From Allomyces macrogynus ATCC 38327 (Eukaryota; Blastocladiomycota; Blastocladiomycetes; Blastocladiales; Blastocladiaceae), in NCBI GenBank assembly GCA_000151295.1, contig GG745375.1, forward strand, positions 233,131-297,130: a DNA stretch of 64,000 nt. Direction: 5' to 3'. Position 1 is the first letter of the stretch. Every line of letters starts with the position of its first letter. A program made the translations under genes and the position numbers. Shown in pieces: positions 3,001 to 43,591 of this stretch. The notes under the pieces were generated by a model, which ran no database searches, was not told the DNA's origin, and was given only the letters and a program-made list of their open reading frames with translations.

Positions 3001-6000
3001 ACATGGCTGTCGCGTCGCGGAACCGCTTCGCGCGCATGAACGCCTCAGCGGCCTTGCTAAACATGCCGAGGTCGACAAACTTGGCGGCGGCTGTTGCGTA
3101 CATGGCCGCTGCCTTTTGCGGACCGCCGTGCCGCGCGCCCTCCTGCTTTTCGGCGTCCTCAAACGCCATGTGCGCCGCGCACAGCGCCATCTTGGTCGTG
3201 TTGCCCGCGCGCTTGAAGCATGTGTGTGCGAGATGGTACTGCATCGAGTCGAACAGCTTAAGCCCTTGTTGCTCCCACAAGACCGGGTCAGACTCGCGCG
3301 TGAACGTCAAGATCGAATCAATGAGCGAATCGCGCCGGACGAGCGTCTCGTCGGCGAGCATTTTGAGCAGCGTATTGCCCTCGCCGCGCTCCTCGTAGAT
3401 CCATAGCCCCTCCTTGGCGCGCGTCACGGCCACATAGAGCAGCTTGAGCTCGTGTGCGAGCGTCGCGTGTTCCATCGGGTCGATGTGCTGCCCCTTGGCG
3501 AGCAGCTTCCACTTTTTGAACGGCGACGTCGAGACAAGATTGAACAGCAGCACGTCGTTGAACTCGAGCCCCTTGGACTCGAAAATGGTCAGCACTTGGC
3601 CGTCTTCGAGTTCGTGTCGCCGCATCATTTGCAAGACGCGCTCCTTTTCGTTGTCGTCCCGGACCAAGAAGGCCTGCGACGCGCCAAGACTGCACCGCCG
3701 CGACGACGTGCCAAAAACTTGTCGAATGAACGCGTCCTCGTCGCCATGGAACAGGAACGGCAACGGGCCGTCGTTGAGCGCCTTTTCCGGCTCGAGCTGG
3801 TCAATCGAATGTGGGAAATGCTTGACGAGCAGCTCCACGAGCCGCGCCGCCAGCTGCAGCACGCCGACATGCGTGCGGAAATTCTGTGTGAGCGTGTGCA
3901 GCGGCGGGACCTTGGCCTTGCGATAGGACCACTCTTGGATCCGGTTCAGAAACTCGCTGTAGAAGGTGGCCTTCATGTCCTGGAACCGGAACGCCGAGCA
4001 GGTAATCGTCTGCGCCGTGTCGCCCGCAAATAAAAACCCGTCCGGGTTCGCGCAAATCAGACTGAGCAGCGCGATTTGCGCCATGGACAAGTCCTGCGCC
4101 TCGTCGACATAGACATACTCGATGTCGCGCGGCACCTCAGACCCGCGCGCGTAAATGTGCCGCACGACGTCGGCCATGTCCCATTCATGCCGTGCACGCT
4201 TCTTGCGCGCGTACCAGACGTAGCCGTTGTAGATGGTCGCGCGGTCCGAGTTGGAGAGCGTCGACGTGCGATACGCGGCCAGACCAATGTACCCGTCCTT
4301 GGTGAGCACGCCCATGGGCGACTGCAGCGCCTCGAGCGACCCGCAAATGACGCCCTGGATCTGGGTCCACAAGTACGCCGGGTCAAATGCACGCACGGGC
4401 TTGGGCAGCAGCGGGTAGTAGGCGCGCTCGAAACGGCCAAAGTCGACGGCCTTGTCCTTGCGATGCAGGCCAATTGGATGGTCGGAATCAAGGTCGTCAT
4501 CATGATCCCACTCGTCCTGGAGCTCGTCGACGTCGCCATCATTGTTCTCCACCGCGCCAGTGCCTCGAACAGTCTCGTCTTGGTCTTCATCCACAATGGC
4601 CGCAAACACACGCTCGTGCTGGAAGAACGGCTGCGTTAAACGCGAATCGAGCCAGTCGACGACGTTGCCCCACGATGCGATGCGTGGTGCACTCTTCTTG
4701 GCCATATCCTCGCTGACTTCCGGCAGCAGCTTGCTGTACTTTTCGTACTGCGTTTGCAAGTTAGCCGCGAGCGTCGGCGACAACGTGAGCAGCAGCTGCG
4801 TGAGCGGCTCGTCGGCCGATCCGCGCTTGCGATAAACGTGCTCGCGCTGCCACAACTTGAGCAGCATGACCGTTGTCTTGCCCGTGCCGCTCCGCCCGAT
4901 ACAGAACATGCTGCCCTCCTGGCGCACGAGCTCCTTTTCCTGCGGCGTCAAGTCGCATAGCAGATCAAATTCGTGCAGCGCCTCGACCGACTCGACGGCA
5001 AACTTTTCCCAGAGCGCGTGGTTGAGCTGATACGACTTGATGAGCTCGAGCTGGCTCGCCGACGTGTTCTCGGCGAGATCCACTTCAGTGCAGGTGCTGC
5101 GGCGCAGCGTGCGCATAAACTCGAACCCGCCCGGCACCGTCGTGGGCATGTAAACGTCGTCCTTCCCTGGAGACCGCTTGACCTTGCGGCACACGGCAAT
5201 GTACTTGTCCGAGTGATTGCCGAGCGCGGAGCGCGCCTGCTGAACGCCCTGTGCGATGCCGGACCGCGGCCCGAGCCACCAAAACTTGATAATCTGCTTG
5301 ACGCTGTCCTTGACGCCACGCAGCGCCAGACTCCAAACAAACGCGTACTTGCCGGCCTCACCCGTGACGAGCATGTTGCTGAGATTGCCCGACGACTGCT
5401 TGCCGGTAAACCGCACGCCAAACTTGCCATCGAGCACGCGCACCATCTTGCGGATCACGGCCGCGCGGTCGTCGATCGCCATGCGCCGCATCGTCTCCAC
5501 CATTTGGTGCGACCACGACGACTCCCAGACGGCGCCCTCAAAGTTGAGAAAATGAGACTGGCCGCGCGATTTCACGGTCGCAGCCGCGGCCGCAACAGGA
5601 GCCGATCGGCGCGCGGACGGACGGGCAGCCACCGCGCCCGTCGCGCTTTCAATCAACTTTTCGACCTTGGCCGCCACGACCACAGCCTGGACCTCGTTGT
5701 AAAACGGGAGCCGCGACGCGTCGAGCAGAAGGTCACGCGAATGCGCGTCCATGATGAGCCTTTTCCACACCTCGCGCTTGAGCAGCGTCTCAGCGTGCCC
5801 GACTATCCAGCACGAGTACTTCGCGCGCGTGATGGCCACATTGAGTCGCCGTGGATCGCCGAGAAACCCGATGTTGCCCTTGCTGTTGGACCGCACGCAC
5901 GAGAAAATGATAATGTCGCGCTCTTGGCCTTGGAACCCGTCAATCGAGTTGATGCTCACCACAAGCTTGCCCTTGATCACGAGCATATTGTGCCGCGCGT

Positions 6001-28437: not shown

Positions 28438-29646
28438 GGCAGGCGGCCGTCGCGCTCCGTTCCACGTCGCGAAGGTCGAGGGTCGAGGAGCAGGTGGGTG
28501 GGTGGACTTTGGGAAAGGCATTTGTGAATTTCTTTTTTTTTCTTTCCAACAGTGCTCAAGGACCGGACCGGCGCGGATGGGGACACGGACGCGGTTGGTG
28601 GATGAGATGGGTCGGTCCGTTTGTACAGGCATTTTAATAGTGGATGCATGCTAGGTGGATGGACGGTGGGTGGTTGGAGCACGAGGCTCCCAGAATCGTC
28701 TTGGCCATCCACCGTTCGTGGTGGTCCCGGATCGCACGACTCCGGTGGAAGCGTGCGTGTCGCGGGCATACCGTTCCCATGGATCGGAGCGCGTCGCAAA
28801 ACGGCCGGCCGCCTTCCATCACATCCCCATCACCATGCGGAAGTGCCCTCGCGGCCACAAACGCAACGACAACAATGGGCGCGGCAGGGTCCTTGCACGA
28901 ACGACACGGAACCTCGCGCATCCATTTCATTTTCGTTCCCATCCCGTACAAACTTGACGAAATTGGTCGGCTCGACACTTGTCCCTGCACCACTGTCGTC
29001 GCCATGCTTGTCCGTCAGCTGAGCCCATGCAGATCCCTCTCCCACAGTATGGCGTCTCGCGCGTTTCGGCAAACCACCGTGCCCTGCTGCAGCCAGGCGG
29101 AGCTGCGGGCGCAGCCATGTCCGCATCTCAACGAAGAGCCAGCCGCGTGCGTCATGGACCCCTCAACAGGGGACAAACACGCGTCTCGCACTTCCGCACA
29201 GCTCGCGCGCAGCCGCTGCGGTCCGGTGCGTGCATGCACACTGAGCGGGCCGCAGCACCTGCCAACGAAGCGCGTTGGCACCGACGAACGGATTTGTTGA
29301 GCAGTGATGGACACGAATGCGACGCGCTTTGCTTTGCGTTTGGACTCGAACGCGTCCGCGTCCGCGTCTGCGTTCCCGCGAGGCATGCAGGCGCACGTCG
29401 TCGATGAGGTTCGGTGCCCCAAACGCGTGCGCGCGCGCGGCGCGCCGTTGCGGTCCTGGGCTGCGGCGCGCCGCGGGTCATGAGCAGACGCCACGAGTTG
29501 CCTGAGTGGTTGGAGCTGGTCGCCACCACCAAAGGTCGAGCCTTGACTCGCGGCGCGTTTCGCGTCCCCAACGACGCGATCCGACGCGCCGTCGCGCGGC
29601 CGCGGTACAAATACCCGGGGCGCCGTCGTTCCAGAGGTTCACCATC
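28438..29646. other. Intergenic, ATG1 to QSQ-A
   Basis: About 1.2 kb. It contains the ATG1 3' flank (with a T-rich stretch near 28535) and the QSQ-A promoter. A weak TATA-like tacaaata lies near 29606. No gene supported; open frames on both strands lack recognisable content. Confidence 0.4.
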
Positions 29647-29741: not shown

Positions 29742-31202
29742 ATGTCGGCCGCCGTTCAAGCCCAGTCGCAGTACCAGTCGCAGTGGGGTGTCGGCTCCGG
29801 GTCGCAGTCTCAGTACCAGTCGCAATCACAGTCGCAGTACGGCGATCATGGCGCGCAGTACCAAGGCCAGTCGCAGAGTCAGTACCAGTCCGGCTCCGGC
29901 ACGCAGTCGCAATCGCAGTCGCAGTCGCAGTACCAGTCGGGCGATCACGGATCGCAGTACCAAGGCCAGAGCCAGAGTCAGTACCAGTCGGGCGACGGCG
30001 GTGCGCAGTACCAGGGCCAGTCGCAGTCGCAATATCAGTCGGGCCACACCGGCCATAACTCGGTCGATCAATACCAGTCACAGGTACGCGTCGTGTTGCC
30101 TTACTCTATCTACCCATTCGCGATCATTGATGCCCACTTTTGATTTTTTTTTTCTTCTCGTGCGCGTTTCTAGAGTCAGTACCAAAGCCAGTCGGGCCAC
30201 GACGGCGCTCAGTACCAGGCGCAGAGCCAGAGCCAGTACCAATCGGGCGATCACGGCTCGCAGTACCAAGGGCAGAGCCAGAGTCAGTACCAGTCGGGCG
30301 ATCACGGCGCGCAGTACCAAGGCCAGAGTCAGAGTCAGTACCAGTCGGGCCATGGTGGGCACAACTCGGTCGATCAATACCAGTCGCAGGTGCGTGTTGT
30401 GTCGCCTCTACTCCCTCCAATACTTTTCTGATCGTCAATACTCACCAATCGCTATTCCGCACGCGTTTATAGAGCCAGAGCCAGTACCAGTCGGGTGATC
30501 ACGGCGCGCAGTCGCAATCCCAGGGCCAAAGCCAGTCGCAGTGGGGTGACCACGGCGCGCAGTCGCAGTCGCAGAGCCAGTACCAGTCGCAGTACGGCCA
30601 TGATGGCGCTCAGTACCAGGGCCAGAGCCAGGGCCAATACCAGTCGGGCGATGCGGGCGCTCAGTCGCAGTACCAGGGCCAATCGCAGTCGCAGTGGGGC
30701 CAGGATGCGGGTTACCAGGCGCAGTCGCAGAGCCAGTCGCAGTGGGGCCATGGCGGACACAACTCGGTCGACCAGTTCCAGGCGCAGGTGCGTTTGATTT
30801 GAAATTTGATCTCTCGATCCGCGCGCTCGATCTGAACACTCACTACCCCTATTTTCGCCCTTTCTCTCCCTGATGTAGAGCCAGTCACAGTCGCAGTGGG
30901 GTCACGATGCGGGTTACCAAGCGCAGTCGCAGGCTCAGTCGCAATCGCAGTGGGGCCATGACCATGGTGCCGACGCGTTCCAGTCGCAGGCGCAGAGCCA
31001 GTCGCAGTGGGGCCATGGCGGCGACGCGTTCCAGTCGCAGTACCAGTCGCAATCGCAGTCCGACTGGGGCCACAACCATGGCGACATTTTCCAGTCGCAG
31101 GCGCAGTCGCAGTCGCAGTGGAACGCGGACGGCGGGTACCAGGCACAGCACCAGGACCAGTCGCAGTACGTGATTGACCACAGCCACGGCGGCTGCTTCT
31201 AA
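29742..31202 (+). CDS. QSQ-A: Gln/Ser/Tyr-rich repeat protein, prion-like composition
   Basis: 398 residues in four exons: 29742-30083, 30174-30389, 30473-30787 and 30879-31202 (introns 90, 83 and 91 nt). Every intron is phase 0. Every internal exon begins with Ser-Gln, and exons 1-3 end in GHNSVDQ(Y/F)Q(S/A)Q. The body is built from SQSQYQSG, DHGAQYQGQ, SQSQWGHD and, towards the end, DAFQSQAQ units. There are few charged residues except Asp and His, and almost no Lys, Leu or Pro. The last exon ends GYQAQHQDQSQYVIDHSHGGCF-stop. No signal peptide or membrane helix, so a cytosolic or nuclear protein is expected. The composition resembles prion-like, condensate-forming domains (FUS-type Q/S/Y/G). 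I know of no named family; function unknown. Confidence 0.8.
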
Positions 31203-32473
31203 GCGGTCGACGACGCGTGGTGACAGCCGCAGGCTGTCCGCGCACAGTTTGGCGAGGCGCGGTGCCCGGCGGCGGCGGCGAGAGGAACGTGAAGAACGGG
31301 CAACGTAGCAAAGGGTGACGAGAAAGTGGAAGGAGGATGAGGTTCGACCATCATGCACATTTTGTGAATATTCAATCCGCAATCAATTGCGCCTTGCGCG
31401 CTTTTTCATCCTATTTTTAGCCTGCTCTTGCATTTGAGCGACGCTGATAAGCGGTACAGCTCATTCGCAGCAGCAGCGAGCAGCAGCTGAGAATCGATCG
31501 CTTGATGGCAACGTTCAGCTTGACCTTTTCATTTTGGCTGTATTAACGCCCACTCTCGAGAGCAAACAAGCTCGATAGTCTAATTCATAAATTGTCTACA
31601 TGGCAATTTCAGATATATTCGCGGTGTTAACAGATCGAAAAAACAGAGTCAATGGAGCCCCACTTCGCGCGTGATGCACTGGCGCGAGGCGACATTCATG
31701 GAGCAAGTCCTCGCCCAGGCCATCGTGCGTCAGGGAGAAGGAAGTGCGGCCCACAATCACTCGGGATGCAGCCGCTACCGCTCACGTTACAGCCGCTGTT
31801 GTAGACCCTCTTCCCCGAGCGGTCAGGAGCGGGAAAGAGAGAGTCATAAGTGAGTCAGGGATACCCGACTTTCCGCGGACGGAGGGAACGCGATCAGACG
31901 GCAATCAACACGCGGACGAGAAAGCAGCCGCACAAATCTGAGTCGAGCGACGATTTGCGATGATAGGGGCCAGTGACACGTGCGCACAGCTGCAAACACG
32001 CCCTGGCCGAACCCGTCGATGACGAAGAAGCAGCGTGCAAGGTTGGACCGTGCCAATCTCGCCGCGGCTTGAGCCGCTGGACGTCTCCGCGCCTTCTCCA
32101 CCCGGTTTAGCCGTCGAATTCCCGCTGGATAATTGTCGGAGCCGGGCGCGGATGGAATGTTCACGGCCTTCACGGGACAGTCTCAACCGTGGGTGTACGC
32201 TTTGAGCTGATTCGTACAGTTTGTGGTTTTCGTTTTTTTTTTTCGTTAAGGACTTGTCTTTGGGCGCCAGCAGCCGTGCGGGTGTCTGGTTCTGACAGAT
32301 CCTATGCTGGCCTCACGTGTTCATGGGATGGCAGCCGTCCGCTGGAGACATCTGGCTGCACAATTTGACAACATAAACGAGACTTTTCATCACGAAGCCA
32401 AGGCCTCAAGACCACAAAAAAACCGTCTTGCACGCTTCTGTTTGCGATCATATGCGACTGGCGAGTTTATTTG
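31203..32473. other. Intergenic, AT-richer stretch outside the left arm
   Basis: About 1.27 kb. The part from 31360 to 31650 is clearly richer in A+T than its surroundings. A T-tract lies near 32235. No gene supported. The final few bases (from 32467) supply the last codon and stop of the left 207-residue gene. Confidence 0.4.
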
Positions 32474-33090
32474 CGCATCCGCAGAACCATGCCTGGATTC
32501 ATCCCAAGCCGCGACTTCCTGGCTGGCGGTGCCGTCACGTCCACGCGCGTGCCTGGTGCGACAAGCACGCCGCCGCGCACCTCCATCGTCCCCATTTTGA
32601 ACCGGACGGCGACCATGGTCTCGCTCGACACGTCGTTGGTGGCGCGGAGCGTTTCGCCCTGAGCGACAACGTGCCAAGTCGTACCGTCGACTGTCACGTC
32701 CATGGCCGAGTTGGTCGCGTGGACGCTGATGGTATTGCGCGCGTCCAGCTCGGCCGCGGTCGGCGCGTCGACGAGGTCAAACATGGCGAGCAGAATGGGC
32801 TCATCCTTGGCGACGCGGTAAACCTCGACTTGCGCTGCCGCGGGAACGTAGCACCCGACCGTCGCTCCATCCGCCGCGCGCGCGTACACACACAACCAGT
32901 CCTGCGTTGCCGCAAAATCGTGCTCGGTGCCTGGATGGAGCGTGTGCCACGCGGACGCTGGGACCGAGCTGGGCTTCGTCGTGGCGGAAACCAGCACGGT
33001 GATGCTCGCGTCCGTGGAGTTCGTGACCCGGATCGTGTCGGGCGTGTCGATGGCAAAGAACCGTAGCTTGGCGGGAGCAGACGTGGTCAT
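32467..33090 (-). CDS. 207-residue protein of unknown function, left copy
   Basis: Single exon. The ATG at 33090 is preceded by gccaag; the open frame extends eight codons further but only through a TTG. Two tandem beta-rich halves are visible: DTIRVTNSTDASITVLVS with WHTLHPGTEHDF, and NTISVHATNSAMDVTVDG with WHVVAQGETLRATND. This suggests a duplicated beta-sandwich. The tail is basic (ARKSRLGMNPGMVLRMRK). No signal peptide or membrane helix. The arm ends inside the third-last codon: this copy ends Arg-Lys-TAA and the right copy Arg-Arg-TGA. I do not recognise the family. It lies downstream of, and in the same direction as, QSQ-B. Confidence 0.7.
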   Translation of the reverse strand: MTTSAPAKLRFFAIDTPDTIRVTNSTDASITVLVSATTKPSSVPASAWHTLHPGTEHDFAATQDWLCVYARAADGATVGCYVPAAAQVEVYRVAKDEPILLAMFDLVDAPTAAELDARNTISVHATNSAMDVTVDGTTWHVVAQGETLRATNDVSSETMVAVRFKMGTMEVRGGVLVAPGTRVDVTAPPARKSRLGMNPGMVLRMRK

Positions 33091-33780
33091 CTTGGCGGCT
33101 TGGCGATTTGGCAAGGGACGGTGCGATAGCGCGGCGGGCGCGTGGGGCGCGTGGGGCGCGCGGTGTGGTGGAGAAGATGCAGCACCAGGGCGGCGTCCTT
33201 GTGGTGGAGAGCAAAGGCCGTTGGTAGTTCAAACCGAGTGTATGATCGTTCAGCCGAAGAGGACTTGGAAAGCGACGTACAGTGGAAGCGAGCGCCAACG
33301 AGTGGTGAAAGCTTGGCTCTTTTTGGATACGGCGCGAACCGTCCAATTATTTTGGCAACTGTGGAAGTCGGAACGACAGCAGAACGCGGTGCCGTTTGTG
33401 TCTCGGCGCGTGGTGAGGCCGACCGAGAGTAAATACGAAATGCAGTGGCAATCTGGTCTGCTTGTGCGTTCAAAGCAACAGTAACTGGCCCCGCTGATAC
33501 TCTTGATGCTCGCTCGCGTTATTGCTGGGCAAAACAAAGGAAGCACAGGCGCGTGGAAATCAGAAATTCGATTTGATTTGATTGAATTGGATGAGCAATG
33601 CTTCAAGATATGGTACAAAGGACAGATGCGACGCTCCACCTCAAGAGCGCCAGATGGTCCACTTACACGGTAAAAATCAGCGGCGCACTCACCAGAGCGG
33701 CCGTCCACGACCGCACGCGCGTGCGCGCGCGCGCTCCATGGCGTGCTTGCGCTAACGTCATGCAGCGACAGCGCTGCTGC
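33091..33780. other. Left arm: region between the QSQ-B stop and the 207-residue gene
   Basis: 690 bp, mirrored at 42278-42967. It holds the QSQ-B 3' flank, including a run of alternating purine/pyrimidine GC (about 33714-33735), and the promoter of the 207-residue gene. No TATA box or other gene seen. Confidence 0.45.
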
Positions 33781-34752
33781 TTAGAACGAGAACTGCGACT
33801 GGTCCTGGTGCTGCGCCTGGTACCCGGCGTGATCGTGGCCCGACTGGTACTGCGACTGAGCCTGCGACTGAGCCTGGAACGCGTCGCCACCATGGTGGCC
33901 ATGCTCGTACTGCGTCTGAGACTGCGACTGCGCCTGGAACGCGTCGCCGCCGTGACCGTGGCCGTACTGCGACTGCGACTGAGCCTGCGACTGGAACGCG
34001 TCGCCGCCATGGCCCCACTGCGACTGCGACTGAGCCTGCGACTGGAACGCGTCGCCGCCCTGGTTGTACTGCGCCTGGCTCTAGAAACGCGCGCGCGAGA
34101 ACAATGAAAAGTGAGCATCAATGGTCGCGAATGGGTGGAGAGAGTAGAGCAACGCGATGCAACGCGTACCTGCGCCTGGAACTGATCAACCGAGTTGTGC
34201 CCGCCGTGGCCAGCCTGGTACTGCGACTGGCTCTGCGATTGCGCCTGATACCCGGCGTCATGGCCCCACTGCGACTGGCTCTGCGATTGGCCCTGGTATT
34301 GTGCGCCATGGCCATGATCGCCCGACTGGTACTGCGACTGCGATTGGCCCTGGTACTGCGCGCCATCATGACCGGACTGGTACTGCGACTGCGATTGGCC
34401 CTGGTACTGCGCGCCATCATGACCGGACTGGTATTGGCTCTGCGACTGCGATTGCGACTGTGCGCCCGAACCGTGGCCCGACTGGCTCTGGTATTGCGAT
34501 TGGGATTGTGACTGCACGCCCGAACCGTGACCCGACTGGCTCTGGTACTGCGACTGCGACTGCGACTGCACGCCCGAGCCGTGGCCGGCCTGGTACTGGC
34601 TCTAGAACGAACAATACAACGCGAAAACGCGGTGGACAAGTGAGCGCGTGGTTCGCAGGGGGCGTCTTTGTCGCGACATGCGTCGATTCGAGTCGGCTGC
34701 GCCAAAGATTCCACACACGCACCTGCGATTGGCTTTGGTACGACGACGACAT
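33781..34752 (-). CDS. QSQ-B: Gln/Ser/Tyr-rich repeat protein, left-arm copy
   Basis: 253 residues in three exons, mirror image of the right copy: 34752-34723, 34601-34170 and 34080-33781. The first exon is only ten codons (MSSSYQSQSQ). Exon 2 has QSQSQYQSQSGHGSG and DGAQYQGQ repeats and ends GHNSVDQFQAQ. Exon 3 has GGDAFQ(S/A)QAQSQ units and ends GYQAQHQDQSQFSF-stop. All introns are phase 0, all donors are gtgcg or gtacg, and the acceptors are ttctag. It is paralogous to QSQ-A, lacking one exon module. The antisense frame is also open (Leu/Arg/Val repeats) but is a by-product of the CAG-rich sequence. TATA box at 34852-34859. Confidence 0.8.
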
Positions 34753-34851
34753 GTTGGTGGGAGGGGTAGGGGTGGGTGGAGAAGCTTGTGCTTGCAAGTT
34801 GGAAGATGCGATGCAATTTGATGAGGACCCAAAACTCGGCGGGGCTGTTGG

Positions 34852-34859
34852 CTTTTATA
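34852..34859 (-). promoter_or_regulatory. TATA box of QSQ-B, left copy
   Basis: TATAAAAG on the minus strand (gggtataaaagcc), about 100 bp upstream of the start codon at 34752. Exact mirror of the right-arm element. Confidence 0.75.
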
Positions 34860-36973
34860 CCCGACGCGCGCGCGTGCTGTGCTCAAATCAAATTGAAGCC
34901 GCGCAAGAACGCGTCACATTCAACGTGCTGGCAGGGAGGGCAGAAGCGCACTGGTCGAGTCGGCGTGGCAGCGTGATGCCCTGCCCGTTGCGTGCTGCGC
35001 ACGTCCGTTGCGCGAGGCTCGCACCATCGGGTCCGCAGATGAAGTGACAACCCGCAGTCGCGCGACGCACACTGCGTGTGCGTGTGTGCGCCAAAAGTCA
35101 AGAAACGGCTGCGCGTGTCAAATCGCGCATGGCCCTGCGCACCCAGGCCGCACGTTTGCTCAAAACACGCAAGCAAGCGTCAGAGTGCTTGCCCGGCTGA
35201 GCTTTTGAGTTCGCCCGTCCGTGTGGCGCGGTCCGTGCACCTCCGATCTTCAACAGCCCTCGCTCATCGCGTGCTGTCACTGCTTGCAGCCTCCTGAGGC
35301 ACCGGCTGCCTCCGCCGACCACACTTTCATTCACGTTCTTCATCAACGCGTCGGGCCACTGGCTCTGATTTGAAGCTGATTTCGCGTTGGCACATCGTGC
35401 GGCGGCGGCGTGCGCCGCGGCGCCGCCGCTCGTCGAAACCAGTCATCCACACTGAACCAAACGATTTGGGCCATCCGCCACGCACAGAGCAGCTCGTGAA
35501 GTCGATGAAAACATGAATGGGACCCGATCAAATGGCACTGGCAGTCAGCAGTTGGTTCGATCGCGTTGGTTGCACTGCACTATACTTCACGCGCATCAAC
35601 TTCAGGCGTGCAAACCAGCAGCAACACGTCGTCAAGTATCATTTTACAAGCGTCGCCCACGTCGCAACTTGGCTGGCCGGATGAGCTTCGTCCGTAACGA
35701 TTCATTCCACTTGCTCGCCATGGCAAACGAGGCTGAATCGCCGTGGCAGCCGGAGCAGCAAAGCGCAGCAAGCAAATTGCGCGTCCTGAAGCACGTCGGG
35801 CGCTTCTTTGTCCTGGTCGATCCTGCTTTCTCTTTGCTGCAGCACAGACAGGCCAGCAGCTCCTAGAGGTTACGCGCGCCGACTTGCCGAGCAATTGCTC
35901 AATCTGGTGCCGCTCTGCGTCGTCTCTTGCTATATGCAGCTTCAAATTCAGATTGACAGATAATGGCGGGGCAAAGGCAAGGACTTTCGCGCACAACAAG
36001 TGCTCATTCAGGTGGTTGTCCAAGCTGTTTGAGGTCGAGTAGACTTACCACTTCCCATACGGTCTCTTTCTTCCCTCAATCAATGTTAATCGAGGCCGCA
36101 TTGTGATAGTCAAGGGCAGCAGGCCCTTAATCATGATTATCGACACTATTAACACCAGCGACCGAGTTACTCTCAGCATCGCTGATGTACTCTCAGCATC
36201 GCCGATCGTTAGTTGAAGACTTGGTACTGCATGAGCGAACGGAACAAAGGGAAGGTACCTCCAGGCCTGTGTTCAGAGCACACCGGGCCTCGGCTCGTTC
36301 CCCCTTTTATGCGCAGACGACTCTTATGTGCAGTCTCCAGACTCTGAAATTATGTGGCCAACACGCGTCACGCTTCGCGCCCTGCGCCTGATCGCCTGTG
36401 CGGTCTGCTGACCCCGAAATAAACCTAAATGATAAAAGGAAGCAACAAAAACACCGACCTAAACTCGGCTTCCCTTACCGGGTGCTGTCAGCGAAGAGCG
36501 CGCGCACTGCTATGGATCTGCTCATTGCTGCAAGCACGCTGTCCTTCCTCATCCAAGATGCCCTTCCCATGACAAATCGGCGGCCAAAATGGGCGGAGAA
36601 GGCGAGGAAACGCGCAGAGGGGCTTCACGCGACGACACGACGCGATCCGCCCTCGTGTTCACCAACTCGTCTCCAGCAAACTCGATCTGGGCATGCTCAC
36701 GTCAGAGCGCAGCGTAGCGCTTGCCCGCGACTGATCGCGTCGCAATCACTTCACCTGGCAACCTCCTCCCGGTTTGGAATACTGCTCTTGGTCAATTGGT
36801 TGGCGTACAGCAACGCTCCAGCTGTGAGAGCGGCCGCTTGGATGATTGAATCGCTTGTGCAGGGCCACACCTGCAGAAGGCGCCCCTGACGGCCTCCACG
36901 ACGCTCGGCGACCGCTTCGGAGTCGGCCAACGACGACGCGCGCGAACACGCTCGCGCTGACTTCGACTGGTTG
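34860..36973. other. Left arm: 2.1 kb upstream of QSQ-B, no gene recognised
   Basis: Mirrored at 39085-41198. It contains open frames of up to about 160 codons on both strands, none with motifs or splice structure I trust. A direct repeat of tactctcagcatcgc occurs twice near 36170-36202. No terminal inverted repeats or transposase seen. Confidence 0.4.
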
Positions 36974-36974
36974 T

Positions 36975-37582
36975 TGACTTACGGACGCGGGGCTGACAGT
37001 TCGAATTTTGCTTCACTTGCACTGGCGTGCTGTGCGTCAACTGACGCCACTCCTTTTGCCACCTTCTCTTCGCGCCTTTTACCCTGTCTTCCATAAAGTT
37101 TATTATGAGTCCCCGCGCTGTTGTTTACCACCTTCTCAGGCGCGGCTACGCCCGTCGACCCCGCCCGCACCCGCAGCACCCGCAGCGCGTGGTGATGCAG
37201 GCTTGAGCTCCGACTGCGACATGTATCGCTCTACGTTCTCTCTCCGTTTCTGGCTCCGTTTCTGGCTCCTCAGCCCCTTCCATCCCTGACCGACCGATCT
37301 CGGTGACGCCAACCGACCCTTGAGGCCCTCTGCCAACTTGATCACGCCCGCTAACCCGATGCCGCCCCTCACGGCGTCGCGCTCCTCGCCCAACCCAGCG
37401 CTGCAGGTCGCTCTTTATGCTTGCATGACACACCGCTCACATCTGGGGGTCAGAAAAATGTTGTAGAATTGAATTAATGAATTACTGGTCATCAAATGAA
37501 ATAACTTGAAACCACTGTGATTGACATGACTGTGGCCACGGCCATGGCCATTGTGAAATCATTTGCCTGGCGCATAGACTGG
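36975..37582. other. Spacer of the inverted repeat, left part
   Basis: Single-copy sequence between the arms, beyond the 3' end of the GH28 pseudogene. The part at 37445-37530 is AT-rich. No gene supported. Confidence 0.4.
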
Positions 37583-38570
37583 TTATTGGTTGAGGAGGAC
37601 AGTCCGCAATCCTGGCCAGCACCAGTGCATCCCGCGAGTTACCACTTGATGGTGTTGATGTCTATGCAGCGCCTGGTCCGAGTCGGCAATCGTGTTGCCC
37701 TGGATCAGGACGTTGTCCACGTGCTTGCCGGCCTTGATCGAGCCAATCAAAATGCCGTGGCCGCCAATGCACTGGTTGGTGAGGAACTTGACGTTCTTGC
37801 CGTCGTTGAGCGCGAGCCAGTCGTCCTGGTTCTTGCAGATCGAGTTCTGGATCGTCAGGCCGTTGACGTTCAAAACGTCAAAGCAGCCTGCTGCACGAAA
37901 CGACAGACAGAGAGAGCGGTAAGCGACGTGCTTTCGGGTGGAGAAGAAGCGTCGAGCATGAACTGTACTGTTGTGGCCGCCGTTGTTTGCGCCAAGCGAA
38001 TCATCGATGGTGATGCGGTCGAGCAACATCTCACCCTTGGCGCCGACCGAAATAGCGTGGGTGGGCGTGTTCTTGACACCGAGCAGCGACACGGAACCGG
38101 CCGCATTCAGCTTGACCACCAGGTGCGGCTTGGTTTTGCCGCCGTTGCTGCCCTTGCCATCCCAATACAGCTTGTCCTAGCCGTCAAGAACGTGGCCGTT
38201 GCCGTTCTATTATTCGAGGCAAGATGGTTGGTGGTGATTGAAGACACCTGATCCTGCTCCAGACCCAACCTCGACACGCACCGCTGTGACCTTGGCCGTA
38301 TCTGACGCGCCTGAGACGCGGAACAGCGGGCCCTCCCTCTCACTGTAATCGAACAACAGGTCGCCCGCGAAATCGACAATGGCGTTGTCCTTGAGCCCGT
38401 CGAGCGAGCGTCTGGCCGCCAGGCACCATATACGTATTGATGGTGCTGGTCGAGCAGTCGGCCAGGATTTTGGAGACTTCAAACGAGTCCACGACGCATG
38501 TCTTGCCAGTGGGCGCAGCATGCGCGGCAAGTGCGGCAAAGGCGAGCAGGAAGACGAGCAAGCGATGCAT
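37583..38570 (-). pseudogene. GH28 polygalacturonase, broken and truncated
   Basis: ATG 38570 starts a signal peptide (MHRLLVFLLAFAALAAHAA) and a normal GH28 N-terminus. Later blocks are diagnostic: YWDGKGSNGGKTKPHLV, GVKNTPTHAISV, NVNGLTIQNSICKNQDDWLA (family NQDDC) and CIGGHGILIGS (family GGHG). Disabling changes: near 38400 a four-base repetition (cgctcgctcgac) shifts the frame between GGQTL and LDGLKDN; near 38170 LDG is followed by TAG before DKLYWDG; after TIADSDQAL the frame is lost, and the normal last third (RIKT and beyond) is absent. At least two genuine introns are also present. Intact GH28 enzymes are secreted and hydrolyse pectin. It lies wholly in the spacer of the inverted repeat, so it is single-copy. 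Confidence 0.8.
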
Positions 38571-38633
38571 GGTGAGGAGTCGGATCAGGAACAATGTGGG
38601 TGTGCAATGCGATGATGGGCGGCCTCTAGCGCC

Positions 38634-38640
38634 TTGTATA
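38634..38640 (-). promoter_or_regulatory. TATA-like element of the GH28 pseudogene
   Basis: TATACAA on the minus strand, about 64 bp upstream of the ATG at 38570, in line with the spacing at other genes of this window. Confidence 0.45.
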
Positions 38641-39083
38641 TGGTCGGTGGCCCAAGCGGCACTCGTTGACGGACTTCGGATTCAGATCTGGGCGGACGGT
38701 GCAAAGCACGTCCACTGGACCACTCGGTACGCGATGCATGGTGCCTCCTGGGATTTTAACGGCAGCACGCCGCTCCCAGCACAAGGGATAACGGCTTGGC
38801 AGGCTCGACGCTCGTCGCTCAGCCAGGATGGGTGCCAAGACAGCGTGCAGTCATGAACAACGCCAATAATTCCCCTCACATCTCACGCTCGTGCCCCCTC
38901 GTTTCATCTTTTGGCCACGACGACTGTTCTTGGAGGATTTACATCCGTCAATGCGATCTCAAGGTTTATCCGGGACACAAACGTTCAGACAGGTGAACAC
39001 GAAGGGCTGCTTTGGTTCATTGCGTCAACATCAAGTTGAACGCCAGGTGAACGGTGACCAAGCATTCCACATTTCGCTGGGTG
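38641..39083. other. Spacer of the inverted repeat, right part
   Basis: About 440 bp upstream of the GH28 pseudogene. No gene seen. It ends where the right arm begins (acaaccagtcg at 39084). Confidence 0.4.
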
Positions 39084-39084
39084 A

Positions 39085-41198
39085 CAACCAGTCGAAGTCA
39101 GCGCGAGCGTGTTCGCGCGCGTCGTCGTTGGCCGACTCCGAAGCGGTCGCCGAGCGTCGTGGAGGCCGTCAGGGGCGCCTTCTGCAGGTGTGGCCCTGCA
39201 CAAGCGATTCAATCATCCAAGCGGCCGCTCTCACAGCTGGAGCGTTGCTGTACGCCAACCAATTGACCAAGAGCAGTATTCCAAACCGGGAGGAGGTTGC
39301 CAGGTGAAGTGATTGCGACGCGATCAGTCGCGGGCAAGCGCTACGCTGCGCTCTGACGTGAGCATGCCCAGATCGAGTTTGCTGGAGACGAGTTGGTGAA
39401 CACGAGGGCGGATCGCGTCGTGTCGTCGCGTGAAGCCCCTCTGCGCGTTTCCTCGCCTTCTCCGCCCATTTTGGCCGCCGATTTGTCATGGGAAGGGCAT
39501 CTTGGATGAGGAAGGACAGCGTGCTTGCAGCAATGAGCAGATCCATAGCAGTGCGCGCGCTCTTCGCTGACAGCACCCGGTAAGGGAAGCCGAGTTTAGG
39601 TCGGTGTTTTTGTTGCTTCCTTTTATCATTTAGGTTTATTTCGGGGTCAGCAGACCGCACAGGCGATCAGGCGCAGGGCGCGAAGCGTGACGCGTGTTGG
39701 CCACATAATTTCAGAGTCTGGAGACTGCACATAAGAGTCGTCTGCGCATAAAAGGGGGAACGAGCCGAGGCCCGGTGTGCTCTGAACACAGGCCTGGAGG
39801 TACCTTCCCTTTGTTCCGTTCGCTCATGCAGTACCAAGTCTTCAACTAACGATCGGCGATGCTGAGAGTACATCAGCGATGCTGAGAGTAACTCGGTCGC
39901 TGGTGTTAATAGTGTCGATAATCATGATTAAGGGCCTGCTGCCCTTGACTATCACAATGCGGCCTCGATTAACATTGATTGAGGGAAGAAAGAGACCGTA
40001 TGGGAAGTGGTAAGTCTACTCGACCTCAAACAGCTTGGACAACCACCTGAATGAGCACTTGTTGTGCGCGAAAGTCCTTGCCTTTGCCCCGCCATTATCT
40101 GTCAATCTGAATTTGAAGCTGCATATAGCAAGAGACGACGCAGAGCGGCACCAGATTGAGCAATTGCTCGGCAAGTCGGCGCGCGTAACCTCTAGGAGCT
40201 GCTGGCCTGTCTGTGCTGCAGCAAAGAGAAAGCAGGATCGACCAGGACAAAGAAGCGCCCGACGTGCTTCAGGACGCGCAATTTGCTTGCTGCGCTTTGC
40301 TGCTCCGGCTGCCACGGCGATTCAGCCTCGTTTGCCATGGCGAGCAAGTGGAATGAATCGTTACGGACGAAGCTCATCCGGCCAGCCAAGTTGCGACGTG
40401 GGCGACGCTTGTAAAATGATACTTGACGACGTGTTGCTGCTGGTTTGCACGCCTGAAGTTGATGCGCGTGAAGTATAGTGCAGTGCAACCAACGCGATCG
40501 AACCAACTGCTGACTGCCAGTGCCATTTGATCGGGTCCCATTCATGTTTTCATCGACTTCACGAGCTGCTCTGTGCGTGGCGGATGGCCCAAATCGTTTG
40601 GTTCAGTGTGGATGACTGGTTTCGACGAGCGGCGGCGCCGCGGCGCACGCCGCCGCCGCACGATGTGCCAACGCGAAATCAGCTTCAAATCAGAGCCAGT
40701 GGCCCGACGCGTTGATGAAGAACGTGAATGAAAGTGTGGTCGGCGGAGGCAGCCGGTGCCTCAGGAGGCTGCAAGCAGTGACAGCACGCGATGAGCGAGG
40801 GCTGTTGAAGATCGGAGGTGCACGGACCGCGCCACACGGACGGGCGAACTCAAAAGCTCAGCCGGGCAAGCACTCTGACGCTTGCTTGCGTGTTTTGAGC
40901 AAACGTGCGGCCTGGGTGCGCAGGGCCATGCGCGATTTGACACGCGCAGCCGTTTCTTGACTTTTGGCGCACACACGCACACGCAGTGTGCGTCGCGCGA
41001 CTGCGGGTTGTCACTTCATCTGCGGACCCGATGGTGCGAGCCTCGCGCAACGGACGTGCGCAGCACGCAACGGGCAGGGCATCACGCTGCCACGCCGACT
41101 CGACCAGTGCGCTTCTGCCCTCCCTGCCAGCACGTTGAATGTGACGCGTTCTTGCGCGGCTTCAATTTGATTTGAGCACAGCACGCGCGCGCGTCGGG
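39085..41198. other. Right arm: 2.1 kb upstream of QSQ-B, no gene recognised
   Basis: Mirror of 34860-36973. Same content: unassigned open frames, the tactctcagcatcgc direct repeat (about 39856-39888), and no transposon hallmarks. Confidence 0.4.
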
Positions 41199-41206
41199 TA
41201 TAAAAG
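41199..41206 (+). promoter_or_regulatory. TATA box of QSQ-B, right copy
   Basis: TATAAAAG about 100 bp upstream of the ATG at 41306. The leader then contains gcatcgcatc, where QSQ-A has an expanded CATCG array. Confidence 0.75.
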
Positions 41207-41305
41207 CCAACAGCCCCGCCGAGTTTTGGGTCCTCATCAAATTGCATCGCATCTTCCAACTTGCAAGCACAAGCTTCTCCACCCACCCCTACCCCTCCCA
41301 CCAAC

Positions 41306-42277
41306 ATGTCGTCGTCGTACCAAAGCCAATCGCAGGTGCGTGTGTGGAATCTTTGGCGCAGCCGACTCGAATCGACGCATGTCGCGACAAAGACGCCCCC
41401 TGCGAACCACGCGCTCACTTGTCCACCGCGTTTTCGCGTTGTATTGTTCGTTCTAGAGCCAGTACCAGGCCGGCCACGGCTCGGGCGTGCAGTCGCAGTC
41501 GCAGTCGCAGTACCAGAGCCAGTCGGGTCACGGTTCGGGCGTGCAGTCACAATCCCAATCGCAATACCAGAGCCAGTCGGGCCACGGTTCGGGCGCACAG
41601 TCGCAATCGCAGTCGCAGAGCCAATACCAGTCCGGTCATGATGGCGCGCAGTACCAGGGCCAATCGCAGTCGCAGTACCAGTCCGGTCATGATGGCGCGC
41701 AGTACCAGGGCCAATCGCAGTCGCAGTACCAGTCGGGCGATCATGGCCATGGCGCACAATACCAGGGCCAATCGCAGAGCCAGTCGCAGTGGGGCCATGA
41801 CGCCGGGTATCAGGCGCAATCGCAGAGCCAGTCGCAGTACCAGGCTGGCCACGGCGGGCACAACTCGGTTGATCAGTTCCAGGCGCAGGTACGCGTTGCA
41901 TCGCGTTGCTCTACTCTCTCCACCCATTCGCGACCATTGATGCTCACTTTTCATTGTTCTCGCGCGCGCGTTTCTAGAGCCAGGCGCAGTACAACCAGGG
42001 CGGCGACGCGTTCCAGTCGCAGGCTCAGTCGCAGTCGCAGTGGGGCCATGGCGGCGACGCGTTCCAGTCGCAGGCTCAGTCGCAGTCGCAGTACGGCCAC
42101 GGTCACGGCGGCGACGCGTTCCAGGCGCAGTCGCAGTCTCAGACGCAGTACGAGCATGGCCACCATGGTGGCGACGCGTTCCAGGCTCAGTCGCAGGCTC
42201 AGTCGCAGTACCAGTCGGGCCACGATCACGCCGGGTACCAGGCGCAGCACCAGGACCAGTCGCAGTTCTCGTTCTAA
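41306..42277 (+). CDS. QSQ-B: Gln/Ser/Tyr-rich repeat protein, right-arm copy
   Basis: 253 residues in three exons: 41306-41335, 41457-41888 and 41978-42277 (introns 121 and 89 nt, phase 0). It starts at caacATG. Gln and Ser make up over half the residues; Gly, Tyr, His, Ala and Asp most of the rest. Intron 2 is visibly related to QSQ-A intron 1: both contain cccattcgcga and cattgatg and end gcgcgtttctag. This shows that exon plus intron were duplicated as a unit. The sequence appears identical to the left copy. No secretion signal. Composition is prion-like; self-assembly is an inference and the function is unknown. Confidence 0.8.
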
Positions 42278-42967
42278 GCAGCAGCGCTGTCGCTGCATGA
42301 CGTTAGCGCAAGCACGCCATGGAGCGCGCGCGCGCACGCGCGTGCGGTCGTGGACGGCCGCTCTGGTGAGTGCGCCGCTGATTTTTACCGTGTAAGTGGA
42401 CCATCTGGCGCTCTTGAGGTGGAGCGTCGCATCTGTCCTTTGTACCATATCTTGAAGCATTGCTCATCCAATTCAATCAAATCAAATCGAATTTCTGATT
42501 TCCACGCGCCTGTGCTTCCTTTGTTTTGCCCAGCAATAACGCGAGCGAGCATCAAGAGTATCAGCGGGGCCAGTTACTGTTGCTTTGAACGCACAAGCAG
42601 ACCAGATTGCCACTGCATTTCGTATTTACTCTCGGTCGGCCTCACCACGCGCCGAGACACAAACGGCACCGCGTTCTGCTGTCGTTCCGACTTCCACAGT
42701 TGCCAAAATAATTGGACGGTTCGCGCCGTATCCAAAAAGAGCCAAGCTTTCACCACTCGTTGGCGCTCGCTTCCACTGTACGTCGCTTTCCAAGTCCTCT
42801 TCGGCTGAACGATCATACACTCGGTTTGAACTACCAACGGCCTTTGCTCTCCACCACAAGGACGCCGCCCTGGTGCTGCATCTTCTCCACCACACCGCGC
42901 GCCCCACGCGCCCCACGCGCCCGCCGCGCTATCGCACCGTCCCTTGCCAAATCGCCAAGCCGCCAAG
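42278..42967. other. Right arm: QSQ-B 3' flank and promoter of the 207-residue gene
   Basis: Mirror of 33091-33780. Just past the QSQ-B stop is an alternating GC run (about 42323-42344). No additional gene seen. Confidence 0.45.
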
Positions 42968-43591
42968 ATGACCACGTCTGCTCCCGCCAAGCTACGGTTC
43001 TTTGCCATCGACACGCCCGACACGATCCGGGTCACGAACTCCACGGACGCGAGCATCACCGTGCTGGTTTCCGCCACGACGAAGCCCAGCTCGGTCCCAG
43101 CGTCCGCGTGGCACACGCTCCATCCAGGCACCGAGCACGATTTTGCGGCAACGCAGGACTGGTTGTGTGTGTACGCGCGCGCGGCGGATGGAGCGACGGT
43201 CGGGTGCTACGTTCCCGCGGCAGCGCAAGTCGAGGTTTACCGCGTCGCCAAGGATGAGCCCATTCTGCTCGCCATGTTTGACCTCGTCGACGCGCCGACC
43301 GCGGCCGAGCTGGACGCGCGCAATACCATCAGCGTCCACGCGACCAACTCGGCCATGGACGTGACAGTCGACGGTACGACTTGGCACGTTGTCGCTCAGG
43401 GCGAAACGCTCCGCGCCACCAACGACGTGTCGAGCGAGACCATGGTCGCCGTCCGGTTCAAAATGGGGACGATGGAGGTGCGCGGCGGCGTGCTTGTCGC
43501 ACCAGGCACGCGCGTGGACGTGACGGCACCGCCAGCCAGGAAGTCGCGGCTTGGGATGAATCCAGGCATGGTTCTGCGGATGCGGCGTTGA
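42968..43591 (+). CDS. 207-residue protein of unknown function, right copy
   Basis: Same protein as at 32467-33090 except for the last residue (Arg instead of Lys), which lies beyond the end of the repeat arm. ATG at 42968 after ccgccaag. Two beta-rich halves with Trp-His (WHTLHPG and WHVVAQG) in equivalent positions suggest internal duplication. No signal peptide, no membrane helix, no intron. It follows QSQ-B by about 690 bp in the same direction, in both arms, so the pair has been kept together. The family is unknown to me. Confidence 0.7.
   Translation: MTTSAPAKLRFFAIDTPDTIRVTNSTDASITVLVSATTKPSSVPASAWHTLHPGTEHDFAATQDWLCVYARAADGATVGCYVPAAAQVEVYRVAKDEPILLAMFDLVDAPTAAELDARNTISVHATNSAMDVTVDGTTWHVVAQGETLRATNDVSSETMVAVRFKMGTMEVRGGVLVAPGTRVDVTAPPARKSRLGMNPGMVLRMRR

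Follow-up and report, generated by a model that had tools for sequence, protein, structure and literature searches.

A Phase-0 Gene Family Encoding Repeat Proteins with Alternating Glutamines in Allomyces macrogynus

QSQ genes in the window

We analyzed a stretch of 64,000 nucleotides from Allomyces macrogynus ATCC 38327 (contig GG745375.1, positions 233,131 to 297,130), here referred to as the window. It contains three genes of a repeat protein family that is termed QSQ, namely, QSQ-A, QSQ-B, and QSQ-B', the last being an inverted copy of the second. All three were found where the initial annotation, made from the sequence of this DNA, had placed them (Table 1). Gene models were built from sequence using GT..AG sites that fall between codons. 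The splice-site patterns were written after the first genes had been seen, and four acceptors were placed by hand, the automatic pass having picked later ones. The models bear out three features claimed in the initial annotation: (i) the introns of QSQ-A and of both QSQ-B copies are exclusively in phase 0, (ii) every later exon of A and B opens with SQ, and (iii) the sequence GHNSVDQ(Y/F)Q(S/A)Q ends four distinct module exons (A1, A2, A3, and B2). All introns of the 16 intact family models described below are also in phase 0 and begin with GTRYG, a common donor form that is partly a result of construction, since the donor pattern was used in finding the introns. The proteins had further been noted to carry no signal peptide; in agreement, a hydrophobic-window scan, which is distinct from a leader predictor, detected no 11-residue hydrophobic window near the N terminus (first 60 residues) in any of the 4 proteins checked among the 16 intact ones.

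The family in the genome and its homeologous copies

A search of the organism's own 54-Mb genome with protein A returned 62 matches. The QSQ family comprises 19 copies, of which 16 are intact; contigs C28 and C60 hold nine each, and one is found on C29. Three copies look broken. C28_324 is frameshifted and has lost a donor site, and the last exon of C29_161 contains a stop. The third, C60_253, is the homeolog of QSQ-A; a 1-nucleotide frameshift, possibly due to a sequencing error, lies in its exon 1, and its exons 2 to 4 resemble those of A. Past the frameshift, the spliced frame of this copy is open over 398 amino acids (aa) and rich in Arg and Ser; the repeat lacks stops in its other frame as well, which explains why the copy stays open. 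The homeolog of QSQ-B is C60_249. The GHNSVDQ stretch, searched as an exact DNA pattern, matched nothing in the genome, since a single codon choice does not cover the copies.

C28 and C60 hold their copies in the same order, reversed. The aligned stretches of the two contigs are mostly 73 to 84% alike, with several near 90%; old homeologs are therefore more likely than haplotypes, and an origin of the C28/C60 pairs from haplotypes was rejected. Searches for ribosomal protein S12/S23 and for histones returned 5 and 11 matches, respectively, and included pairs on different contigs, a pattern that fits a polyploid past.

Table 1. Positions of QSQ genes, associated elements, and related genes (window coordinates unless a contig is named)
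Feature	Position	Strand	Description
TACAAATA element	29606..29613	+	136 bp 5' of QSQ-A start codon
QSQ-A	29742..31202	+	splice model, 4 exons, 398 aa
QSQ-A exons	29742-30083, 30174-30389, 30473-30787, 30879-31202	+	each length divisible by 3
QSQ-A intron 1	30084..30173	+	phase 0; kin of A intron 2 and B intron 2
QSQ-A intron 2	30390..30472	+	phase 0; kin of A intron 1 and B intron 2
QSQ-A intron 3	30788..30878	+	phase 0; C28_203 subfamily type
Left arm of inverted repeat	32474..36974	+	carries QSQ-B' and second duplicated reading frame
QSQ-B'	33781..34752	-	whole gene matches QSQ-B exactly, inverted; 253 aa
Right arm of inverted repeat	39084..43584	-	carries QSQ-B
TATAAAA element	41199..41205	+	107 bp 5' of QSQ-B start codon; same for QSQ-B', other strand
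QSQ-B	41306..42277	+	splice model, 3 exons, 253 aa
QSQ-B exons	41306-41335, 41457-41888, 41978-42277	+	splice model
C28 copies	158, 200, 203, 221, 223, 263 (= A), 267 (= B'), 275 (= B), 324 kb		
C60 copies	189, 246, 249, 253, 278, 280, 308, 313, 348 kb		
C29 copy	161 kb		
Superfamily genes	C73/C75, C61/C58, C62, C72		alternating-Q repeats, TATA-like element

Glutamine alternation and repeat architecture

Composition and alternation were calculated for the 15 distinct intact copies (the B copies of the window being identical), with 1,000 shuffles each. Glutamine accounts for 29 to 32% of the residues, Asp plus Glu for 4.7 to 6.8%, and His for 4 to 8%, and K, R, and L are absent from every intact copy. 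For A and B, with about 31% Q, 20% S, and about 1% N, the composition is the one that the initial annotation had described. The dipeptide QQ does not occur in any of the 15 copies, compared with about 14 to 40 occurrences expected by shuffling, and QxQ occurs 38 to 104 times, versus 14 to 40 by shuffling, exceeding all 1,000 shuffles in every copy. In A and B, 63% and 62% of the residues, respectively, belong to (xQ)5-6 runs, each 10 or 12 residues long, which are separated by Gly/His/Asp turns of 4 to 10 residues, such as SGDHG, WGHGGDA, and SGHTGHNSV. Taken over all copies, the residue x of the runs is mostly S, A, Y, or F. The repeat unit is about 17 aa; in five copies, run starts were measured to be 15 to 22 residues apart, and 12 to 22 strand-plus-turn repeats were counted per protein. 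Among repeat lags, 17 scores best in A and C28_158 and ties for best in C60_278; the best lag is 2 in B, where 17 ranks third, and 37 in C60_308. The C-terminal residue of the 16 intact copies is F without exception, preceded by C in 11 of them.

The proteins had been called prion-like. A yeast-type prion-like domain is Q/N-rich with few charged residues, and the QSQ values given above, with K plus R at 0, agree with such a composition. The high Q content thus stands, but the term misses the main feature of these sequences. Since Q alternates and QQ is never present, beta strands are suggested rather than a polyQ/N tract. FUS-type low-complexity domains are defined by [G/S]Y[G/S] repeats, none of which was found in the 16 intact copies.

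Selection on the coding frame

The ratio of nonsynonymous to synonymous substitution rates (dN/dS) was determined by a simple count method on aligned repeats. Five homeolog pairs, pooled, gave a dS of 0.350, a dN of 0.040, and a dN/dS of 0.11, whereas the other two frames gave ratios of 4.83 and 3.40. Substitutions at codon positions 1, 2, and 3 of these pairs numbered 43, 38, and 190, respectively. Single pairs ranged from 0.04 to 0.20, with 0.04 for QSQ-B and C60_249; the C28_200/C60_313 pair is itself touched by conversion (see below). Judged from these substitution counts, strong purifying selection keeps the QSQ proteins intact. A different view would be that the repeats are simple-sequence DNA, an expansion of the hexamer CAGTCG that is open in several frames by chance and has no selected product. 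The frameshifted copy C60_253, still open over its spliced exons, is what one would expect in that case, whereas the frame specificity of the dN/dS, the mixture of synonymous codons, and a splice pattern and promoter element common to the copies are not. We rejected such an artifact on the basis of the frame control and consider it extremely improbable.

Introns and exon modules

Intron similarity was scored against 500 dinucleotide shuffles. B intron 2 is similar to A intron 1 (z score of 9.8) and A intron 2 (z = 5.9) beyond all 500 shuffles, and A introns 1 and 2 resemble each other with a z score of 3.2 (score of 43; shuffle maximum, 41). The similarity of A intron 3 to A introns 1 and 2 and B intron 2 did not exceed that of the shuffles (z = 0.6, 0.1, and 0.5, respectively), and the same was true for B intron 1 with respect to A intron 1, B intron 2, and the C28_203 intron (z = 2.3, 2.3, and 0.6). 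A intron 3 is similar to the C28_203 intron (z = 7.5). The proposal that exon and intron duplicated together therefore holds for A introns 1 and 2 and B intron 2 but not for A intron 3, which is of another subfamily. From this double kinship, QSQ-A looks composite, its 5' half having grown as exons duplicated along with introns and its 3' end being of the type of a different subfamily.

Inverted gene pairs and signs of gene conversion

QSQ-B and QSQ-B' lie in the arms of an inverted repeat that the initial annotation of the QSQ genes does not mention. The arms, of 4,501 bp, are 100% complementary and separated by 2,109 bp; being 100% identical, they may reflect an assembly error. The C60 counterpart of this repeat has a single B-type gene. 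A 215-aa reading frame (window positions 42944 to 43591, plus strand), mirrored in the left arm, was duplicated along with QSQ-B; it has no Pfam match, and weakly related DNA was found at 302 kb of C28 and 213 kb of C60. The spacer contains a fragment of a glycosyl hydrolase family 28 (GH28) gene (positions 37583 to 38119, minus strand; E value, 1.5e-20). GH28-related DNA is also present about 2 kb from QSQ genes at 155 kb of C28 and 351 kb of C60, as well as on C75.

Another inverted pair is present in both homeologs, at 221 to 224 kb of C28 (arms of 867 bp, 99.8% alike) and at 278 to 280 kb of C60 (arms of 1,014 bp, 99.0%), with related spacers (71%). That the arms are not fully identical and that the two pairs have a diverged spacer in common argue against assembly errors. 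Across homeologs the arms are only about 73 to 79% alike, as opposed to 99 to 100% within an inverted pair. In the simplest reading, one old inverted pair would have been homogenized by arm-to-arm gene conversion; separate duplications on C28 and C60 are the alternative. A putative conversion tract is seen more directly in C60_313. Its upstream 120 bp are 96% like those of its homeolog C28_200, and its 3' side likewise returns to C28_200, whereas its coding part and intron are 94 to 100% like C60_280 and 64 to 98% like C28_200. Furthermore, C60_308 and C60_246 have an identical intron, mostly identical exons, and diverged flanks, and C60_189 and C60_246 lie within a 3.7-kb duplicate (99.7%). 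Inverted pairing may be general across the QSQ superfamily (see below). Since pair copies are 99 to 100% alike and cross-homeolog arms only about 73 to 79%, the locus is a clear case of inverted gene pairs and could serve to study palindrome-linked gene conversion in a fungus.

A wider superfamily in the same genome

A query taken from the large C75 gene returned 73 matches over many contigs, and a C61 query identified a close relative on C58. The loci read for this comparison included those on C58, C62, and C72. The C61 relative has six exons, picked by eye, with lengths that are all divisible by three. Those starts of superfamily genes that were likewise read by eye consist of a very short first exon followed by a phase-0 intron and have no obvious leader. 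The window family is the compact version, with its unit of about 17 residues, whereas the repeats recur with a lag of 24 in C62 and C72 and with one of 22 in part of the C75 gene. In addition, the relatives contain QQ (14 in L051), which is absent from the window family.

The relationship was assessed with a profile of the QSQ last exon, using 200 composition-and-parity shuffles and 200 block shuffles per sequence. Best-domain scores of five distant sequences were 12.6, 12.6, 31.4, 31.7, and 35.7 bits, and none of the 200 shuffles of either kind reached them; bias corrections were large in all of these profile scores. Because the best-domain scores beat all shuffles, kinship goes beyond composition for the C75 and C61 genes. 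It is weaker for C62 and C72, for which the margin is thin (best-domain scores of 12.6 bits and whole-sequence scores of 12.6 and -24.0 bits, respectively). Superfamily matches occur on opposite strands of one contig at 538/553 kb of C48 (57.9 and 57.9 bits), 438/440 kb of C71 (41.6 and 41.9 bits), and 68/143 kb of C69 (41.6 and 32.3 bits). In the C75 gene (L032, about positions 3,150 to 3,700), short segments of the GGNTGYDNGQW type appear to alternate with similar, intron-like stretches of about 70 bp, which suggests duplicated mini-exons.

Promoter element and codon use

The TATA boxes of the initial annotation were recovered as TATAAAA at B and as the variant TACAAATA at A. A TATA-like element, defined as TATAAA, TATATA, TACAAATA, or TATTAATA, was present upstream of all 25 genes examined, at positions -82 to -136 in the 19 family copies and -73 to -181 in six distant relatives (150 bp of upstream sequence; 300 bp for L035). 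The background was 30 in 7,500 shuffled upstream sequences and 19 in 2,000 random 150-mers of the window; as the genes are related, the 25 upstream sequences are not independent. A slightly narrower pattern was found within 500 bp upstream of the match in 2 of 12 histone and ribosomal protein fragments, matches that need not begin at the first exon.

The codons TAC, TTC, AAC, and CAG have shares of 0.97, 0.97, 1.0, and 0.90, respectively, in QSQ genes and 1.0, 0.83, 1.0, and 0.91 in histone genes, compared with 0.82, 0.67, 0.83, and 0.70 in DIS3. Subtilisin (0.95, 0.61, 0.86, and 0.85) and a rhodopsin-guanylyl cyclase fusion (1.0, 0.71, 0.78, and 0.85) are near QSQ save for F. Codon use thus favors high expression only mildly, and strong, stage-specific expression of the QSQ genes is plausible.

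Comparison with known proteins

Articles are cited below by PMC identifier and on the basis of excerpts. No Pfam family matched A or B, and no PDB sequence matched B, at E values up to 1. In NCBIfam, A matched two staphylococcal adhesin models with 28.7 and 27.6 bits (E values, 3e-7 and 6e-7); with cutoffs of 999 and 1150, these scores are far too low, and the similarity was taken as one of composition only. The claim that no described family has this layout is consistent with these searches. With the last-exon alignment as query, one scan of prokaryote genomes and one of viral contigs gave patterns in 596 and 600 stretches, respectively, none of which was confirmed, and a horizontal origin was rejected on this basis. 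Literature searches by topic words retrieved no report of the family, and those by peptide strings retrieved articles that look unrelated by title, including two on other fungi with one occurrence each; the excerpts of PMC1550239 and PMC11878562 do not describe a QSQ-type family. QSQ is an undescribed gene family, known here from one genome. New here are the regular Q alternation, the frame-specific purifying selection, the inverted duplicates with putative gene conversion, and the TATA-like element in 25 of 25 genes.

By analogy, the nearest functional counterparts of QSQ would be proteins that self-assemble through strand-turn repeats, curli among them, and proteins that form coacervates in response to pH, as the squid beak proteins do. 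(i) The curli subunit CsgA has strand-turn repeats, Gln ladders, and Gly-containing turns, as excerpted from PMC10192328, and resembles QSQ in these respects, the QSQ strands being predicted. The curlin core motif N-$-Psi-$-Psi-$-Q given there had no match in the 16 intact copies or L051, and the Pfam curlin repeat was absent from A and B (E values up to 1) and from L051 and two C75 gene parts (E values up to 5). QSQ thus differs from CsgA in motif and Pfam profile, as well as in the lack of a leader in the 4 proteins checked. (ii) The squid beak proteins HBP-1 and HBP-2 share with QSQ Gly-His motifs with aromatic residues. They phase-separate with pH, and GHGxY repeats drive their coacervation (excerpt of PMC6884462). 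QSQ, in contrast, is Q-rich and has no GHGxY in any of the 16 intact copies. Because the tested motifs of both fail, QSQ was not filed under either group. (iii) Yeast-type Q/N-rich prion-like domains and pH-sensing Q-rich sequences (SNF5) are also Q-rich and K/R-depleted and contain His (PMC8890752, in part), but in QSQ the whole protein is repeat, QQ is missing, and N amounts to about 1% in A and B. QSQ is best called a member of the Q-rich low-complexity structural repeats.

The likeness to SNF5 raises the possibility of a pH-sensing regulatory sequence that acts on transcription or on a partner. Histidines of the SNF5 Q-rich region are required for pH-dependent recruitment in yeast (PMC8890752), and QSQ has the corresponding richness in Q, 4 to 8% His, and no K or R. 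However, Pfam revealed no DNA-binding or other domain in A or B, and 16 intact copies would better suit a bulk product, so that we regard a regulatory role as very unlikely.

Predicted structure and proposed function

An AlphaFold2 model of A exon 4 aligned with B exon 3 contains strands only (13 to 16 residues, one of 6), with a predicted local distance difference test (pLDDT) score of 66.6 and a predicted template modeling (pTM) score of 0.47; a model of A exon 3 contains strands too (pLDDT, 50.3; pTM, 0.38). The models are compatible with the strand-turn idea, short of proof. We propose, as a reading that is evenly poised, that QSQ is a leaderless intracellular structural protein that self-assembles via beta strands that form Gln ladders and turns that contain His. 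The alternation would place Gln on one strand face, with small or aromatic side chains facing the opposite way, and ladders of Gln side chains together with aromatic contacts would join adjacent strands into a gel or fiber rich in beta structure. The His/Asp turns might tune assembly by pH or metal; the computed charge, which lies between -4.3 and +6.6 at pH 5, falls to values of -10.0 to -21.5 at pH 7, and the histidines could therefore act as a pH switch. The many copies with a TATA-like element would allow the protein to be made in bulk at one stage, and inverted duplication and gene conversion would hold the copies alike.

Several points weigh against this proposal. Both models are of low confidence and were built on 2 and 4 aligned sequences, pLDDT spreads from 66.6 down to 47.0 over the five models of A exon 4/B exon 3, and the modeled strands extend beyond the xQ runs. 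A Foldseek search of the PDB with the first model found no fold at an E value of 0.001 (best, 0.14). The grand average of hydropathy (GRAVY) of -1.35 to -1.64 and the charge at pH 7 could equally keep the protein soluble. Codon bias is mixed, with shares for H and D of 0.70 and 0.77, versus 1.0 and 1.0 in histones; the recent pair C60_246/C60_308 has a dN/dS of 0.49, derived from only 6 and 3 changes; and export without a leader may occur.

The GRAVY values bear in particular on the main rival, a hydrophilin-like desiccation or osmotic protectant that would be soluble and disordered and would shield the contents of the cell, one possible setting being the thick-walled resistant sporangium. Fungal hydrophilins are characterized by a GRAVY below -1, at least 8% Gly, and more than 50% predicted coil (PMC6730492, in part). 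All 16 intact copies have such a GRAVY and 13.5 to 15.7% Gly, in agreement with two of these three composition criteria. Nothing in the criteria, however, requires alternation, and yet QQ is absent from all 15 distinct copies; QSQ also differs in its strand-turn alternation, and the low-confidence models of two exons contain strands instead of coil. We consider a protectant unlikely. Quite unlikely, too, is a septal-plug or surface material, in which case a disordered protein would accumulate at septa or would leave the cell without a leader to serve as an adhesive or in the wall: GH28-related DNA adjoins QSQ genes at three places, whereas no leader or membrane segment was detected in the 4 proteins checked.

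In a more specific version of the self-assembly proposal, which we put forward tentatively, QSQ would be an intracellular functional amyloid or silk, that is, a cytosolic alternating-Gln strand-turn fiber or gel kept uniform by inverted-repeat conversion. It would belong to a genome-wide superfamily diversified by unit length (about 17, 22, and 24 residues) and phase-0 exon duplication and would form a structure that is specific to one stage of the zoosporic life cycle. Should assembly occur, QSQ would represent a periodic glutamine material that is simple in genetic terms, contains neither lysine nor arginine, and has been kept by selection inside the cell; this would bear on the safe use of Q-rich sequences and on new protein materials.

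Rhodopsin genes in the same genome

A fusion of rhodopsin and guanylyl cyclase has been reported from the Blastocladiomycota Blastocladiella, Allomyces, and Catenaria (PMC4046227, in part), and certain chytrids also have rhodopsin guanylyl cyclases (excerpt of PMC12264004). Such a fusion thus indicates a zoosporic fungus, probably one of the Blastocladiomycota and less probably a chytrid. In the genome analyzed here, the two domains are fused in one 563-aa reading frame at 1.226 Mb of C63 (L037), and a second, weaker rhodopsin match is located at 0.127 Mb of C44 (L038).

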